DNA of 24,846 bases, from IMG/VR virus record IMGVR_UViG_3300049846_000818, positions 1 through 24,846 of that record; one strand, given 5' to 3'. The position numbers and the translations under genes were made by a program. A model generated the notes under the pieces. It was not told the DNA's origin and did not search any database. It saw only the letters and a program-made list of their open reading frames with translations. Shown here piece after piece: positions 2,327-7,254 of this stretch (within the stretch, counting starts at the first letter, position 1; every line of letters starts with the position of its first letter). Source of the DNA: a virus.

Positions 2327-2373
2327 GAGGCAGTGCCTCGCAGCAGCGACCGAAAGGTCTGGCAGCAGTGCTG
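2327..2373 (+). promoter_or_regulatory. Structured 5' leader of the capsid gene: three hairpins
   Basis: Three small perfect hairpins follow one another: GAGGC-AGT-GCCTC (2327-2339), GACC-GAAA-GGTC (2348-2359, GNRA-type loop) and CAGC-AGT-GCTG (2363-2373). The first begins 10 nt after the -10 box, so it would stand at the very 5' end of the transcript. The same design recurs before the tail tube gene. Confidence 0.65.
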
Positions 2374-2412
2374 TGAAGCTGAACAACATTCCCGCAAACT
2401 CGCTTCAAGACA

Positions 2413-3390
2413 ATGCTTCTCGCAGGCGTCCCCCTTATTCCCGAGCTGTTCCTTGAGTATCAGCAGGAAGAGATCCAGGACAAGAATGCCCTGGTCACTT
2501 CCGGCCTGATGGTTACCAACGCTGCCATCCAAGCTGAATTCCAGAAGGGCGGCAAAACCATCGATCTCCCCTTCTTCGGTGATCTGTCCGGCGATTCGGA
2601 AATTGATTCCGACACCGAGGCTTCCACCCCTACTGACATTGCAGGTGACCTGCAGGTCGGCGTTCGCAACATGCGTCGCAAGAGCTGGAAGTCCTCTGAC
2701 CTGGCCGCCGATCTGTCTGGTTCCGACCCGATGCAGGCCATTGCCCGCAGCACCGGTCGCTACTGGATCCGCGACATGCAGAAGACCTGCGTCTCGATCC
2801 TGCAGGGCATCTTCGCTGGCCCCCTGGCCTCCAGCCACGCTGTTGGCGGCACCTCCTCCCAGCTGTCCCAGTCCCTGATGGTGGACGGCATCGCCAAGCT
2901 CGGCGATGCTGGTGACGAGCTGACCGGCATCATGATGCGTTCGCCGGTCTACTACGCTCTGATGAAGATGGATCTCATCATTCCAGCTTCTAACACTTCT
3001 CAGCTTGACACTCGTCTGTCGGCTGAATCGCTGGAAAAGGGCACCTATCTGGGTCGTCCGGTGTTTGTTGATGACCGCCTGCCGGTCGCTGTTGGCGCTG
3101 GTACTGGTAGCACCGACGTTCACGACACCTACTTCTTTGGCCCTGGCGCCTTCGCTTATGCGACTGCTCCTGCCAAGACGCCGGTGGAAACCGATCGTGA
3201 TCGCTTCCTAGGCATCGACTACCTGATCAACCGGACGCACTACCTTGTGCATCCGAACGGTATCAGCTGGCGCGGTACCTCGGCGAAGGCTGCCCCTAGC
3301 AACACCGAGCTGGCCACCGCTGCCAACTGGGTGAAGGTGTTCGACGACGACCGCAACATCCGTATCACCCGGATGCGCTGCTTCGTCTGA
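2413..3390 (+). CDS. Major capsid protein (HK97 fold), 325 aa
   Basis: This should be the main shell protein of the head. The N-terminal part (VPLIPELFLEYQQEEIQDKN, then SGLMV, then KTIDLPFFGDLSGDSEIDSD) and the middle (KSWKSSDLAADLSGSDPMQA, GRYWIRDMQ, ILQGIF) follow the layout of HK97-fold capsid proteins of the type sometimes called Gp13-like. A later segment, MRSPVYYALMKMDLI, fits the same family, as does a C-terminal GTDYL-like block (LGIDYLINRTHYLVHPNGISW). Length is normal. ATG 2413 is the only start after an in-frame TGA upstream; TTCAAG lies 3 nt before it. Codons are strongly C-ending, as expected for very high expression. A terminator follows at once. Confidence 0.93.
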   Translation: MLLAGVPLIPELFLEYQQEEIQDKNALVTSGLMVTNAAIQAEFQKGGKTIDLPFFGDLSGDSEIDSDTEASTPTDIAGDLQVGVRNMRRKSWKSSDLAADLSGSDPMQAIARSTGRYWIRDMQKTCVSILQGIFAGPLASSHAVGGTSSQLSQSLMVDGIAKLGDAGDELTGIMMRSPVYYALMKMDLIIPASNTSQLDTRLSAESLEKGTYLGRPVFVDDRLPVAVGAGTGSTDVHDTYFFGPGAFAYATAPAKTPVETDRDRFLGIDYLINRTHYLVHPNGISWRGTSAKAAPSNTELATAANWVKVFDDDRNIRITRMRCFV

Positions 3391-3411
3391 TAGCTGAGCC
3401 AATCCGCAAAT

Positions 3412-3437
3412 GCCCCGGTTCGCCGGGGCTTCCTTTT
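3412..3437 (+). terminator. Intrinsic terminator after the capsid gene
   Basis: The stem GCCCCGG / CCGGGGC (3412-3418 with 3423-3429) closes a TTCG loop and is followed by TTCCTTTT. The T-run is interrupted by CC, so some readthrough is plausible. No promoter-like -10 element was found between it and the next ATG at 3451, unlike the other strong terminators in the window. Confidence 0.85.
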
Positions 3438-3450
3438 ACCCACAAGAACC

Positions 3451-3642
3451 ATGAGTGCTGGAACTTTTCGTATGAGGCGTGAGGCCGCCCTGGCCGCCAA
3501 GGAGGCCAAGGCCCAGGAGGCTACCGAGGCCCAGGCTGCAGAGCCCGCTGAGGAGGCCCCCAAAGCCGTCTCTACCGTTGCAAAGGCGAAGCCCAAGCCG
3601 GCTGCCCCGACTGCTGCTCCTGCCCCCGCTCCCGCTGCCTGA
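3451..3642 (+). CDS. Small Ala/Glu/Pro-rich low-complexity protein, 63 aa
   Basis: The product is nearly all Ala, Glu, Lys and Pro: a charged N-terminal helix (MRREAALAAKEAKAQEATEA) followed by a Lys/Ala/Pro tail ending in APAPAPAA. It is probably largely disordered. Short genes of this style often follow the capsid gene in siphoviruses, but no function is known to me. CAAG lies 4 nt before the ATG. The next gene starts 10 nt downstream, and the GAGAGGTG that serves as its ribosome site overlaps this gene's stop. The GC-rich composition comes mostly from Ala and Pro codons. Confidence 0.7.
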   Translation: MSAGTFRMRREAALAAKEAKAQEATEAQAAEPAEEAPKAVSTVAKAKPKPAAPTAAPAPAPAA

Positions 3643-3652
3643 GAGGTGACCT

Positions 3653-4309
3653 GTGGCCTTCGTATCGACACTGGGGGCGCCTGACGCGAATTCCTACCTG
3701 TCGGTGGCGGAGGCCACGGCTCTTCTTGGCGACATTCCTGCAAGCTACGGCGTTCAGCAATGGCTTGCATTGAACACTACGCAAAAGCAGCAGACACTGG
3801 TTGCTGCAACAATGGCGATCAACCCTTTGCAGTGGAAGGGGAAGCCTGCTGGCCCTGAGCAGAGCCTGGCTTGGCCAAGGCTGATGATCGCCGATTACTA
3901 CTACTCTGAAATTGACGAGCTACCGCTTGATTTCAAGATGGGCGTTGCCTACATGGCAGCATTTCTTGGTATCAATGGCGGCTACATGGGAATCAAAGAT
4001 GCCGATGGCGGTTCCAAGCGGCAAAAGAACAGCGAGTACGAAGAAGTTGAGCTTGGCAATGGTGACTTGAGAGTCAAGTTTGATAAGAGCGGGATGGCAC
4101 AGACAGGTGCTCTGTTCATTCCGCCGTACTCAATGGATATTTTCCAGAAGTACATGATTCGTGGTGACTTTGTGCAGCCGAGAGTTCGGCGTGAATCAAC
4201 GGCTCGCGTTGGTTACAGAGGTTTTGTGACGAGGCAAAAGCCAAGTGGCGTTCGGATGATTAACGGGCAGCTGTGGCCTTATGGCGGCTCCTGGAGCAAC
4301 AGGTTCTGA
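3653..4309 (+). CDS. Head-tail adaptor, DnaT-like phage protein, 218 aa
   Basis: Residues 1-85 match the phage 'DnaT-like' family of head-tail adaptors: NSYLSVAEATALL, then WLALNTTQKQQTLVAATMAI, then WKGKPAGPEQSLAWPR. Despite the family name there is no reason to infer DNA replication; these proteins bind the portal and begin the connector. The part after residue 120 is an extra C-terminal region with a loop of charged residues, a beta-rich stretch and a basic, Gly/Arg/Tyr-rich end, longer than the usual family length of about 150-180. GTG 3653 was chosen because it has a Shine-Dalgarno (GAGAGGTG) and matches the family N-terminus. First gene of the four-gene connector block. Confidence 0.8.
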   Translation: MAFVSTLGAPDANSYLSVAEATALLGDIPASYGVQQWLALNTTQKQQTLVAATMAINPLQWKGKPAGPEQSLAWPRLMIADYYYSEIDELPLDFKMGVAYMAAFLGINGGYMGIKDADGGSKRQKNSEYEEVELGNGDLRVKFDKSGMAQTGALFIPPYSMDIFQKYMIRGDFVQPRVRRESTARVGYRGFVTRQKPSGVRMINGQLWPYGGSWSNRF

Positions 4310-4311
4310 TC

Positions 4312-4698
4312 ATGTCACTTGTTGACGACGTTTTCGGTTCAATCCCTGGTCCGCTGATTGATGACTGGGGGATTGATGGCGTGTACGTGAAGAAGGTTGA
4401 AAATGCTCCCTACGATCCGCTGATGGGGACATTTGCCACGCCGGAAGCTGAGGCAACCGAAGTGCCGATCAAGCTGGTGCCACTTCGCATCAAACCAGAA
4501 GAGATAAAAGGTGAGATTCAGCTTACAGACCTAAAGATTTTGATCTCTGGTGATGCGCTTGGCGACTATTACCCAAAAACTGCAGATTGGATCAGGTATG
4601 ATCAGGCTGGTGTGCAGCGAACTGCGAAGATTGTGCAGCCGCTGACTCACCGTGGCTCAGCCCCAGTCCTACATTCTGTCATCGCGAGGCTTGCCTGA
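4312..4698 (+). CDS. Head closure / neck protein, 128 aa
   Basis: ATG 4312 lies 2 nt after the preceding stop; an upstream in-frame ATG at 4273 would overlap the adaptor gene by 37 nt and is less likely. The protein has a short N-terminal helix, then a beta-rich domain with YVKKVENAPYDPLMGTFAT, a segment ending VPLRIKPEEIKG, and LTDLKILISGDALGDYYPKT. This is the usual pattern of siphovirus head-closure (Hc1-type) proteins, with a first strand pair around 'Y.V...YDP.TGT' and a later 'D..vLi.g..l......g'. It should close the head after packaging by binding the adaptor ring. The assignment rests on order and pattern. Confidence 0.65.
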   Translation: MSLVDDVFGSIPGPLIDDWGIDGVYVKKVENAPYDPLMGTFATPEAEATEVPIKLVPLRIKPEEIKGEIQLTDLKILISGDALGDYYPKTADWIRYDQAGVQRTAKIVQPLTHRGSAPVLHSVIARLA

Positions 4699-4699
4699 T

Positions 4700-5326
4700 A
4701 TGGCCAGAATTCCAAGCTCAAAAACAAGGCGTGACCTTGAGCGAAGGGGAAGGAAGAGAAAGGCTGGCGATAAGCCGTGGAGCGAAGTTTCTACGGCAGT
4801 TCGTAATCGAATCAACAATGCTGCCAGGCAGGCAGCTGCAGCGGTGATGAATGATCTGGCTGAAAAGGGACCGGCCTACAGCGGTGAATTCCGTGATAGT
4901 TGGCGTGTAAATGCTGTAACTGGTGGCCTTGGTCAAGTGACGCCAAATGGGTACCCATACACCACGCGGGATGTCCCTAAGCTTGATACTAAGGCGAGAA
5001 CATTAGAGGTAGTGAAAGTATTTGAGATTGTCAACACAGCTCCATACGCCCTTTACGCGATGGACATCATTCCCGGCACCTGGAGAAAGCCAAAGGGCTC
5101 CGAGCCGATTGGTGGAATTGAGTTTGGCATTGAACGAGGTAAGCGACAATGGGGAGAATCATTTCGTGGTGATGTTGACCTGAGCAAAGATGGAACTGCT
5201 GTAACCACAGCAGAAAAAGACTGGTATGAAAACTACGTTAGAGGCGGTGGATTGTCTGCCAACTTCAAGAAAGTCGTCAAGTTTGCCTTCCGCAGCGGCG
5301 GTGATGGAACTGTGAGGCTGTCGTGA
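4700..5326 (+). CDS. Neck / tail-completion protein, HK97 gp10-like, 208 aa
   Basis: ATG 4700 follows the preceding TGA by one base; the upstream GTG at 4652 lies inside the previous gene and was rejected. After a basic N-terminus, a long helix (INNAARQAAAAVMNDLAEKG) leads into PAYSGEFRDSWRV, which is the equivalent of 'P..TG.lr.SW.v' in HK97 gp10-like proteins, and later INTAPYA-like IVNTAPYALYAM, the usual 'I.N..PYA..lE.G'. The region 133-190 is an insertion compared with the usual family. These proteins join the head connector to the tail terminator. The stop overlaps the next start (GTGA). Confidence 0.75.
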   Translation: MARIPSSKTRRDLERRGRKRKAGDKPWSEVSTAVRNRINNAARQAAAAVMNDLAEKGPAYSGEFRDSWRVNAVTGGLGQVTPNGYPYTTRDVPKLDTKARTLEVVKVFEIVNTAPYALYAMDIIPGTWRKPKGSEPIGGIEFGIERGKRQWGESFRGDVDLSKDGTAVTTAEKDWYENYVRGGGLSANFKKVVKFAFRSGGDGTVRLS

Positions 5327-5754
5327 ATTATCAAGCAATCTGCGCTGCGCTTGAGCTTCCACTGAACAATGCGTTCATTGCCCTGAGTCCACCTGTCAAG
5401 GTTTTCTTTGATAACTTGATTGTCATACCGCCTGACCCGCCTGGCGAGTACGTGATGGTTAATATCACCTTTGGCTTGACGAGTGAATCAACCTTGACGG
5501 ATTCGCTTGACCACGCTCGTGGTGCCATCATCGTCAGGATCTTCACTGAAAAAGGCCGTGGTGGCAAGAGGGCCAGACAGCTTGCTGGCGTTGCTTCACA
5601 GGTTTTCAGTGTTCTGGGCGCAACAAAAAGACCGCCAACTGGGACATTTGTGCGCGTAAGAGACGTTTCTGGTCCAAATTTCTATATGGATGAAGCGCAG
5701 CCGCATTTCATGGCTAGGTTCGCGGCTTCATGGGACGCAACTAGCTGTGGCTAG
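5323..5754 (+). CDS. Tail terminator protein, DUF4128 / gpU-like, 143 aa
   Basis: GTG 5323 overlaps the stop of the neck gene and has GAGG upstream. The protein has the tail-terminator layout: a helical start (ICAALELPLNNAF), a strand and loop (VKVFFDNLIVIPPDPPGEYV), a central strand (ARGAIIVRIFTEKGRGGKRA), a long helix, and a C-terminal two-strand end (YMDEAQPHFMARFAASW). It should form the ring that stops tail tube growth and docks on the neck. The stop codon TAG overlaps promoter candidate D for the next gene. Confidence 0.75.
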   Translation: MNYQAICAALELPLNNAFIALSPPVKVFFDNLIVIPPDPPGEYVMVNITFGLTSESTLTDSLDHARGAIIVRIFTEKGRGGKRARQLAGVASQVFSVLGATKRPPTGTFVRVRDVSGPNFYMDEAQPHFMARFAASWDATSCG

Positions 5755-5757
5755 GAT
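5746..5757 (+). promoter_or_regulatory. Promoter candidate D (TGTGGC-TAGGAT) for the tail tube gene
   Basis: TAGGAT at 5752-5757 is preceded by TGTGGC and overlaps the TAG stop of the tail terminator gene. Candidate G before the tail fibre has almost the same sequence (TGTGGC-TACGAT). No terminator precedes it. Confidence 0.5.
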
Positions 5758-5765
5758 TGGTGTAT

Positions 5766-5778
5766 CGGGCAGTGCCCG
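5766..5778 (+). promoter_or_regulatory. 5' leader hairpin of the tail tube gene
   Basis: CGGGC-AGT-GCCCG is a perfect 5-bp hairpin with an AGT loop, starting 9 nt after the -10 box. It has the same stem length, loop and position as the first hairpin of the capsid leader (2327-2339); both contain GGCAGTGCC. Confidence 0.65.
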
Positions 5779-5804
5779 CACTGCTGTTCATTTCTTCAAG
5801 GTCC

Positions 5805-6557
5805 ATGTCCTGTGATACCACGGTACTGACCGGCTCTTCGGGCGCTTTCTGGTATAAGCCGGCGAACACCGATGCCTGCCTCTCGGCTTCCGCTTTCCCC
5901 ACCACTGGCGGCAACATTACTGTTGGCGACTTCCTTGGCTTCCAGGTTGACGATCCCGTCACTCTTGCTTATCCGACTGGTGCAACCACCACTGGCGCCA
6001 TCACCGCTGGCAACTACTACGTGAAAACGTATGATCCCACCACCGGGATTATGACGCTTTCCAGCACGGTTGGCGGCTCCGCTGCAACCGCAACGGCAGC
6101 TCCTACCGGTTTTGGCAGCCAGTTGGCGACCATTTCCTACCAGGCATTCGCGCCGATCGCTCAGGTGCGTGACTGGACCTTGGAGATCACCAGGGCTGAG
6201 ATCGACGTTACCACCATCGGTGTTCCCAGCGGCCAGTTTGCTCCGTTCCGTAAGTATCAGACCTCGTTTGCTGATGCTACCGGCACGACCACCGTGTACT
6301 TCACGGATGCTGACTCGGCCATGTCCAACCGCCTGGTGAGCGACGTGTTCCAGCGCCGTCAAACCGGTGCTGCGGTGAAGCTCTACATTGATGCCGTCTA
6401 CTCGGGTGGCACGATCTCTGACACGCTCAGCCGTTCGATCACCTGTGACGTTGTGCTGACCTCGGCCGGTTTCGGTGTGAACCCGGATGATGCTCAGAAC
6501 GTGACCATCAACTTCCGTCCCTCCAGCAACGTTGAGTTTGACCTGACTCGCTCCTGA
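5805..6557 (+). CDS. Major tail tube protein, 250 aa
   Basis: This should be the subunit of the tail tube. The N-terminal half is a beta-rich Gly/Thr/Ala-rich domain (residues 1-115), followed by the tube-like core: QVRDWTLEITRAEIDVTTIG (from about residue 121), typical of tail tube proteins with 'W.l....ve.DtTtlG', then FRKYQTSFADATGTTTVYF, and a C-terminal strand pair (CDVVLTSAGFGVNPDDAQNV). The N-terminal half is probably an added surface domain. ATG 5805 was chosen over TTG 5757 and GTG 5760 because TTCAAG lies 4 nt before it and because the earlier starts would fall in the promoter and leader hairpin. Codons are C-ending, as in the capsid gene. Confidence 0.85.
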   Translation: MSCDTTVLTGSSGAFWYKPANTDACLSASAFPTTGGNITVGDFLGFQVDDPVTLAYPTGATTTGAITAGNYYVKTYDPTTGIMTLSSTVGGSAATATAAPTGFGSQLATISYQAFAPIAQVRDWTLEITRAEIDVTTIGVPSGQFAPFRKYQTSFADATGTTTVYFTDADSAMSNRLVSDVFQRRQTGAAVKLYIDAVYSGGTISDTLSRSITCDVVLTSAGFGVNPDDAQNVTINFRPSSNVEFDLTRS

Positions 6558-6581
6558 TGGCCCTGATTTGGTGCCTGACCT

Positions 6582-6606
6582 GCCCCCGCTTGTTCGGGGG
6601 CTTTTT
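6582..6606 (+). terminator. Intrinsic terminator after the tail tube gene
   Basis: The stem GCCCCCG / CGGGGGC (6582-6588 with 6595-6601) has a 6-nt loop and is followed by five T. It ends the tail tube transcript 25 nt after the stop codon. Confidence 0.9.
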
Positions 6607-6618
6607 CATTGGTATAGT
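6607..6618 (+). promoter_or_regulatory. Promoter candidate E (TTGG-TATAGT)
   Basis: TATAGT at 6613-6618 is preceded by TTGG, giving a near extended -10 (TGG-TATAGT). It starts 7 nt after the T-run of the terminator and 23 nt before the ATG at 6641. Confidence 0.6.
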
Positions 6619-6640
6619 TGTTAGGCCTCCGTCCTTTACC

Positions 6641-7054
6641 ATGGCCTCCCCTTCGATGGGCTTCGGCTCTGCTCTTGAAAAGCTGAAGCAAGCCGCCAAT
6701 CTTGAGCCCGCCCGCAAGGTCGTTCCCCTGAGCGATGGCTTCACCGAGCTTGAGATGTTCATCACTCCGCTTGTTGCTGCTGAGCGCGATCGGGCTCGTC
6801 GCAATGCCCGTGCTGCCTCCAAAACCAAAGATGATGACAGCGACTGGCTGATTCACCTGCTGGTTGCAAAGGCCAAGAATGCTGACGGCAGCGCAATGTT
6901 TGCCGCTGGTGAGATTCCTGAGCTGAAAGGTGCAATTCGCGCTGAAGACCTTGACAAGATGATTCTTGTTGTTCTTGGCAGTGAAGATGATGAGGTTGAT
7001 GCCTCCACAAAAAAATCGCAGACGAACTCCGCCAAGACCGCTGGACCTACCTGA
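6641..7054 (+). CDS. Tail assembly chaperone G (zero-frame product), 137 aa
   Basis: ATG 6641 was chosen over the ATG at 6557 because the intervening DNA holds a terminator and a promoter. The protein has the chaperone layout: a basic helix (GFGSALEKLKQAANLEPARK), a GFTELEMFITPLVAAERDRA segment, a helix with WLIHLLVAKAKNADG, and an acidic C-terminus (GSEDDEVDAS). It is the lambda gpG equivalent: it coats the tape measure before tube assembly and is not found in the virion. Seven A at 7009-7015 near the end create a -1 slippery site, producing the longer GT form. The last 12 residues after the slip site are the part unique to G. Confidence 0.85.
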   Translation: MASPSMGFGSALEKLKQAANLEPARKVVPLSDGFTELEMFITPLVAAERDRARRNARAASKTKDDDSDWLIHLLVAKAKNADGSAMFAAGEIPELKGAIRAEDLDKMILVVLGSEDDEVDASTKKSQTNSAKTAGPT

Positions 7055-7203
7055 AACTGGTAGTTGCCGAGACACTTGGCAAGAGTTACCGTGAGGTTGA
7101 TACAACGATGGCACCAGAGGAATTGATGCTCTGGTCTGCGTACTTCAAGATCAAACAAGAAGATCAAGAAGAGGCAGTGAAGAAAGCCAAGAGGGGCCGC
7201 TAG
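6641..7203 (+). CDS. Tail assembly chaperone GT (-1 frameshift product), 187 aa
   Basis: A -1 shift on A-AAA-AAA (7009-7015) joins 125 zero-frame residues to 62 residues of the overlapping frame, which starts IADELRQDRWTYLKLVVAET, continues with EELMLWSAYFKIKQED and ends in KKAKRGR at TAG 7201-7203. The T part has the composition and the 'W....L....ELMLW.AYF' pattern typical of gpT domains. It has no convincing start of its own close to the slip site. Position between tail tube and tape measure genes is exactly that of lambda G/GT. GT links the chaperone-coated tape measure to tube subunits; the ratio of G to GT sets assembly. Confidence 0.85.
7009..7015 (+). other. -1 ribosomal slippery heptamer A-AAA-AAA
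   Basis: Read in the G frame the seven A fall as A | AAA | AAA before TCG, the X-XXY-YYZ arrangement needed for a -1 slip. A 5-bp hairpin (CTACC 7047-7051 with GGTAG 7059-7063) lies 31 nt downstream, which is farther than the usual 5-9 nt, so stimulation by it is doubtful. Confidence 0.85.
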
Positions 7204-7217
7204 TAGGCCCCTTTTTT
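7192..7217 (+). terminator. Intrinsic terminator at the end of the GT frame
   Basis: The stem AGGGGCC / GGCCCCT (7192-7198 with 7206-7212) has a 7-nt loop that contains the TAG stop of GT, and six T (7212-7217) follow. Confidence 0.9.
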
Positions 7218-7228
7218 CTGGCTACAGT
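7217..7228 (+). promoter_or_regulatory. Promoter candidate F (TGGC-TACAGT) for the tape measure gene
   Basis: TACAGT at 7223-7228 is preceded by CTGGC, directly after the terminator T-run and 27 nt before the GTG at 7255. In the leader, GGCTT (7230-7234) could pair with AAGCC (7250-7254) right at the start codon. Confidence 0.6.
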
Positions 7229-7254
7229 TGGCTTAAGTAAGGCAAGTTCAAGCC

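Follow-up and report, generated by a model that had tools for sequence, protein, structure and literature searches.

What are the two 13-nucleotide (nt) hairpins that lie close to where the capsid and tail-tube transcripts are predicted to begin in IMG/VR virus record IMGVR_UViG_3300049846_000818 (positions 1 to 24,846; this whole stretch of 24,846 nt is referred to as the window)? One of them, GAGGC-AGU-GCCUC (2327-2339, + strand), lies in the leader of the major capsid protein gene (2413-3390, + strand; 325 amino acids (aa); PHROG 247 major head protein, E 6.8e-76). The other, CGGGC-AGU-GCCCG (5766-5778, + strand), precedes a putative major tail tube gene (5805-6557, + strand; 250 aa, ATG start). 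Each consists of a 5-base-pair (bp) stem and an NGU triloop (N, any base; NGT in DNA). The assignment of the tail tube gene is based on the similarity of a relative and on the position after the tail-terminator gene: the window protein itself has no PHROG match, while a relative from its family (L390) is 29% identical to the 'major tail protein' of cyanophage S-2L. An earlier, sequence-only reading of the window had proposed that the hairpins are 5' mRNA signals for virion proteins. Both are present where it placed them and start, as it had stated, 10 and 9 nt past -10-like boxes, namely TACTAT (2312-2317, + strand; predicted capsid promoter, TGGCTACTAT) and TAGGAT (5752-5757, + strand; predicted tail-tube promoter), which end 9 and 8 nt earlier. 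The first three bases of TAGGAT are also the stop codon of the preceding gene.

Judged by the window alone, the case for these hairpins is thin. GGCAGTGCC occurs exactly twice, only on the + strand, and has no occurrence in the reversed-sequence control. Perfect hairpins with a 5-bp stem and a 3-nt loop number 33, compared with 27.6 in dinucleotide shuffles, and those with an AGT loop number 2 versus 0.35. The sequence-only reading had taken the differing yet paired outer stem bases of the two sites for covariation. The two sites are non-homologous, and their comparison proves nothing; true covariation is found only in the wider set of sequences. The reality of the hairpins thus rests on their conservation in relatives.

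We compared non-redundant leaders of related phages, 46 preceding the capsid gene and 42 preceding the tail tube gene. In 31 dereplicated capsid leaders the loop is NGT in 71 of 99 triloop hairpins, compared with 0.5 expected from dinucleotide shuffles, and the antisense strand of these leaders has none. In 26 tail-tube leaders the corresponding fraction is 24 of 27 (0.3 expected). To analyze pairing, sites were chosen by the loop and the two inner pairs only, and 216 sites elsewhere in the same phages served as controls. The outer pairs 3, 4 and 5 are Watson-Crick at 117, 104 and 87 of the 127 capsid sites and at 30, 30 and 26 of the 30 tail-tube sites, respectively, compared with 22-30% at control sites. 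At pair 6 the values drop sharply, to 24/127 and 0/30. When 115 distinct sites are considered, six standard pair types occur at pair 4 and six at pair 5, exceeding all 1000 shuffles, and pair 6 is below its shuffle mean. This pattern amounts to covariation of a stem of 5 bp. Conserved pairing in relatives, which the sequence-only reading had set beforehand as its test, is therefore borne out, with stems covarying across both capsid and tail-tube leaders. At the level of sequence, the covariation, the limit on stem length and the strand-specific loop demonstrate an RNA structure under selection. The essential parts are the 5-bp stem and C-(NGU)-G, with free stem sequence and a C-G, sometimes U-A, closing pair; the R-G-Y top of the stem is a lineage-specific trait of the group to which the window belongs. 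No U run follows position 2339 or 5778, and neither hairpin therefore fits the definition of an intrinsic terminator.

The window's capsid protein has 45 IMG/VR relatives at 72-99% identity, and an alignment query adds more at 73-79%. In close relatives the capsid leader opens with GAGAGGC(A/G)GTGCCTCGCAGC, and its second part reads GCAGC(A/G)GTGCTGTGAAGCTGAA. The sequence-only reading had assigned one hairpin to each leader. Both of its sites are real; what it overlooked is a second conserved NGU hairpin in the capsid leader, GCAGC-AGU-GCUGU (2362-2374, + strand), whose inner CAGC-NGU-GCUG stem is invariant in group A. In some phages a third, variable hairpin lies between the two conserved ones. 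In the window it is the accessory GACC-GAAA-GGUC (2348-2359, + strand), which, according to the alignments, is missing from the short leader form. Because hairpins 1 and 2 hardly vary among close relatives, covariation within these alone (alignment A3) is uninformative. In distant capsid leaders the stems differ and the NGT loop stays constant (GCGGT-TGT-ACCGC, AGCAGC-AGT-GCTGCT, GTGGC-AGT-GCCAC, GGGGC-CGT-GCCCC, TCGGC-TGT-GCCGA). Capsid leaders carry 1-4 NGU hairpins, and one is present before the tube gene. The tail-tube hairpin was found in the main-group relatives examined, down to 41-52% protein identity, as well as in further contigs identified via a divergent tube protein, and its outer pair changes among relatives from C-G to U-A via U-G. 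Of the viral contigs, 36 contain the exact capsid-leader core, nearly always within a capsid leader of the window's group (L055 is an apparent exception). In 84,980 genomes the same core has 36 matches, approximately the number expected by chance, none of which is cyanobacterial; a search of genomes with the capsid protein gave no match. A degenerate tail-tube pattern was too unspecific for scanning viral contigs. As a separate observation, the capsid leader of L244 contains, upstream of position 1030, the second structured unit (GGC(G/A)GCGGTGCTGCAA(A/G)GCT(A/G)AATT) in duplicate.

Many contigs with the divergent tube protein carry a different capsid protein (25-29% identity), in whose leader GCCCC-TGT-GGGGC stands immediately 3' of the upstream stop codon. 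This family has at least 568 relatives. Among 40 non-redundant leaders, a tandem pair of hairpins is found in nearly every member of the main subgroup: G(T/C)CCC-NGT-GGG(A/G)C, GCACC-NGT-GGTGC or GCATC-NGT-GATGC comes first, followed by AAGTC-NGT-GACTT or AGATC-NGT-GATCT. NGT is present in 73 of 76 triloop hairpins, the loop not having been used as a selection criterion. By sequence comparison, this group is an independent replication of the NGU motif with other stems.

The nearest isolates of the different-capsid family are cyanophages throughout; the host of the window's phage is therefore very probably a picocyanobacterium. The capsid leaders of Prochlorococcus phages P-HS2 and MED4-117 have tandem UGU hairpins (GTGGT-TGT-GCTAC and GAGGT-TGT-GCCTC), the first of them 6 nt past TATAGT; owing to the U-G closing pair these are weaker cases. 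The corresponding leader of Synechococcus phage S-H1 contains tandem UGC hairpins (CCGGC-TGC-GCTGG and TGGGC-TGC-GCCCG), KBS-S-2A has only shorter UGC forms before its capsid gene, and in S-2L neither the NGU nor the UGC hairpin is present before the capsid and tube genes. No such hairpins were found in the checked leaders of the out-group cyanophages P-SSP7 and Syn5 (T7-like) and S-CBS1, S-CBS3 and S-CBS4 (siphoviruses). The loop is also UGC, not NGU, in one tail-tube subgroup (L375-L381). These UGC loops occur in separate lineages, as if loop and reader had changed together.

The hairpins are also tied to particular genes and positions. When phage records were read from one end to the other, NGU hairpins located between genes and followed by a gene turned up almost exclusively before the capsid and tube genes, in agreement with the restriction to these two genes noted in the sequence-only reading. 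No NGU hairpin is present at the remaining promoter-like sites in the window (near 310, 6612 and 7220). The distance from the end of the TANNNT box to the hairpin is 8-9 nt in 41 of 42 tail-tube leaders and 9-10 nt in 33 of 45 capsid leaders. Assuming that transcription starts about 7 nt past the box, the conserved -10 spacing predicts that the hairpin starts at +2 to +4, and the first hairpin would form the 5' end of the transcript. Several subgroups and class 3 have additional copies well inside the leader. Two hairpins per capsid leader are found in group A and class 3, and 1, 3 or 4 with variable spacing in others. The centre-to-centre distance between tandem copies is 17-25 nt in P-HS2, S-H1, class 3 and the short form of the group-A leader. 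In class-3 capsid leaders the hairpin comes soon after the stop codon of the preceding gene, and no promoter-like box was seen at the fixed distance. Thus, the sequence data reveal a selected hairpin of fixed stem length with a conserved loop, tied to two genes and, in most leaders, to a fixed promoter distance.

What could such a hairpin do? On a narrow balance, we consider it probable that the hairpins are cis-acting RNA recognition elements for an RNA-binding factor, which raises or times capsid and tail-tube synthesis. The factor would read the NGU loop. Since no shared phage gene for the reader was detected, it would most likely be a host factor of picocyanobacteria, an RRM-type cyanobacterial Rbp being a candidate. 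By binding close to the 5' end, where many capsid leaders offer tandem sites 17-25 nt apart, it would shield the mRNA from 5'-dependent decay, favour its use, or both. As a result, two proteins required in hundreds of copies would be made abundantly and in step. Stabilisation of the mRNA is plausible, and the effect would most simply be protection from 5'-dependent decay or enhanced translation. A bolder version, possible yet doubtful, is that the NGU-triloop hairpin is a new RNA code common to a large Prochlorococcus/Synechococcus siphovirus lineage and is read by a host RNA-binding protein, which phages would use during infection to direct translation or protection towards the mRNAs for capsid and tail tube.

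A number of observations weigh against recognition by such a factor. We know of no binding protein for the NGU hairpin, and among eight hairpin-bearing phage records only structural-looking families are common, with no shared regulator. The tube genes of KBS-S-2A and S-2L, coding for related tail-tube proteins, lack the preceding hairpin, and two tail-tube leaders have ACC or ACT loops. The counts presented above overstate independence, as the relatives are phylogenetically correlated. Folding predictions are likewise not entirely favourable. In a 19-nt context the 13-mers fold with a probability of 0.94-1.0; for complete leaders, however, the mean predicted hairpin probability is 0.45, and the minimum-energy folds of the full window leaders exclude both 13-mers. 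In the window's capsid leader a long-range fold is predicted to be preferred. In the tail-tube leader the 13-mer is mutually exclusive with the hairpin GGCAGUG-CCCG-CACUGCU (5768-5785, + strand), which is predicted to be more stable (-9.0 vs -7.0 kcal/mol). By eye, this alternative pairs in most class-1 tail-tube leaders and is broken in L252 and class 2. A conserved switch between the 13-mer and the overlapping hairpin was considered and set aside; a two-state leader is possible. Nevertheless, covariation argues that the 5-bp hairpin matters despite competing folds, and its formation may be favoured by a bound factor or by folding during transcription.

The closest rival is a plain protective stem-loop of the ompA, papA or aprE type, in which the first hairpin blocks RNase E, RNase J or pyrophosphohydrolase, and the loop and extra copies are incidental. 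The position of the first hairpin 8-10 nt past the -10 box, predicted to be about +2 to +4, would fit such a cap, and stabilisation of mRNA by 5' hairpins is known from E. coli and B. subtilis (PMC3997798). Decay in cyanobacteria relies on RNase E together with RNase J, a 5'-3' exonuclease (PMC10989914), and at least one cyanophage is known to raise host RNase E (PMC9692554). However, the NGU loop is kept in all lineages, several copies are internal, and no promoter-like box was noticed 8-10 nt ahead of the class-3 capsid hairpin, which closely follows the stop codon of the preceding gene. Together, the conserved loop, the internal copies and the class-3 leaders make a sequence-specific partner likelier, and we regard a plain cap as unlikely. 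The ompA-like stem suggested by the sequence-only reading therefore survives in part: the signal is conserved and phage-specific at predicted 5' ends, but a loop that is NGU nearly everywhere and internal copies in relatives make that description too narrow. It is quite improbable that the hairpins are nascent-RNA antitermination or processivity signals of the HK022 put or lambda nut type, through which a modified RNA polymerase would pass terminators beyond the capsid and tube genes. They do open late operons containing terminator-like hairpins (about 3410-3437 and 6583-6605), and the tandem arrangement resembles put; yet their number and spacing are too variable for a put-like fixed fold, no boxA-like element was identified, and the late promoter-like sites near 310, 6612 and 7220 lack the hairpin despite the genes that follow.

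The restriction to two virion genes could also reflect autogenous translational repression, with free capsid or tube protein binding its own leader as in RNA phages. We find this very improbable, considering that the same hairpin precedes two different proteins as well as capsid proteins only 25-29% identical, and that the first hairpin is about 80 nt from the capsid start codon. Finally, the palindromic arms and their constant distance to the -10 box might point to DNA, namely an operator or downstream activator site across the transcription start; a cyanophage MarR protein does bind downstream of a start site (PMC9692554). The strand-specific loop argues against a simple DNA palindrome: the asymmetric NGT centre is one-stranded (0 antisense vs 71 sense in capsid leaders), the arms covary freely, and further copies lie tens of nt downstream. 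The hairpins accordingly differ from DNA operator palindromes, and we consider this reading the least credible.

Compared with known RNA elements, the hairpin acts most like a protein-read leader hairpin, and it does not match the full definition of any named family considered. Rfam release 15, at gathering and permissive thresholds, gave no family match in the window or relatives, and the literature searched contains no account of phage leaders with NGU triloop hairpins. As predicted here, the ompA/papA 5' stem-loop and the aprE leader hairpin lie within a few nt of the 5' end of an abundant mRNA. However, their loops are free, whereas here NGU is conserved (71/99, 24/27 and 73/76 triloop hairpins) and copies are repeated within the leader, at odds with an unimportant loop sequence. 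Lambda boxB/nut and HK022 put are also short phage-encoded leader hairpins opening operons, and boxB has a 5-bp stem and a recognised loop. They differ in a GNRA-like pentaloop (NGU triloop here), in serving early operons (two late virion genes here) and in copy number, which is variable here; with an NGU triloop and no N-like gene or shared small regulator found, the hairpins do not belong to the nut/boxB family. The C-(AGU)-G apical closing recalls the iron-responsive element (CAGUGN, AGU pseudo-triloop), a resemblance only. That element requires a sixth loop base and, 5 bp below the loop, a bulged C; the protein known to bind it is the animal iron regulatory protein (IRP). Here there is no sixth loop base, the first loop base is any of four, and no bulge is conserved across the set. 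Two tandem small leader hairpins are also a feature of the guanidine-II riboswitch (mini-ykkC), which has ACGR tetraloops and a metabolite ligand. The Roquin constitutive decay element is similar in its short stem and specific triloop read by a protein (PMC5603727), but it mediates decay from eukaryotic 3' untranslated regions under another loop rule, and a homologous protein is not expected here. Structured RNAs reported from cyanophages include the Rfam motifs manA, wcaG and PhotoRC-II (PMC2864571). These are associated with metabolic or photosynthesis genes, mostly in T4-like cyanophages, in contrast to virion genes here, and their models have no match in the window or relatives.

If the proposed role is true, virion assembly genes would carry a conserved signal at the RNA level in abundant aquatic phages with poorly known late-gene control. 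The motif is simple, and cultured phage-host pairs are suited to testing it (P-HS2 with Prochlorococcus MED4; S-H1 with Synechococcus WH7803). It could also reveal a new RNA-binding specificity in cyanobacteria. In addition, it offers a sequence tag by which capsid and tube genes, as well as likely hosts, may be recognised in viral contigs that are unassigned.

Several other features of the window are worth recording. An intrinsic-terminator-like hairpin with a T run (GCCGGGG-GAAA-CCCCGGC-T run; 2282-2305, + strand) lies 5' of the capsid promoter and is retained in most group-A relatives. It is part of a cassette repeated between structural genes (270-320, 2282-2317, 6583-6620 and 7205-7230), in which a terminator-like hairpin and T run are immediately followed by a promoter-like box (TGGCTAnnnT/TATAGT). 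After the tail tube gene, an A7 run (7007-7013; retained in relative L224) joins a 165-aa open reading frame (ORF; 6557-7054) to a -1 frame ORF (7000-7203), and looks like a programmed -1 frameshift site of tail assembly chaperones. The small ORF 340-522 is very basic with a lysine/glycine-rich end, and several relatives have a gene ending in KKKR directly 5' of the capsid leader. ORF 3451-3642, located directly 3' of the capsid gene and its terminator, codes for 63 aa rich in Ala, Glu, Pro and Lys with no PHROG match.

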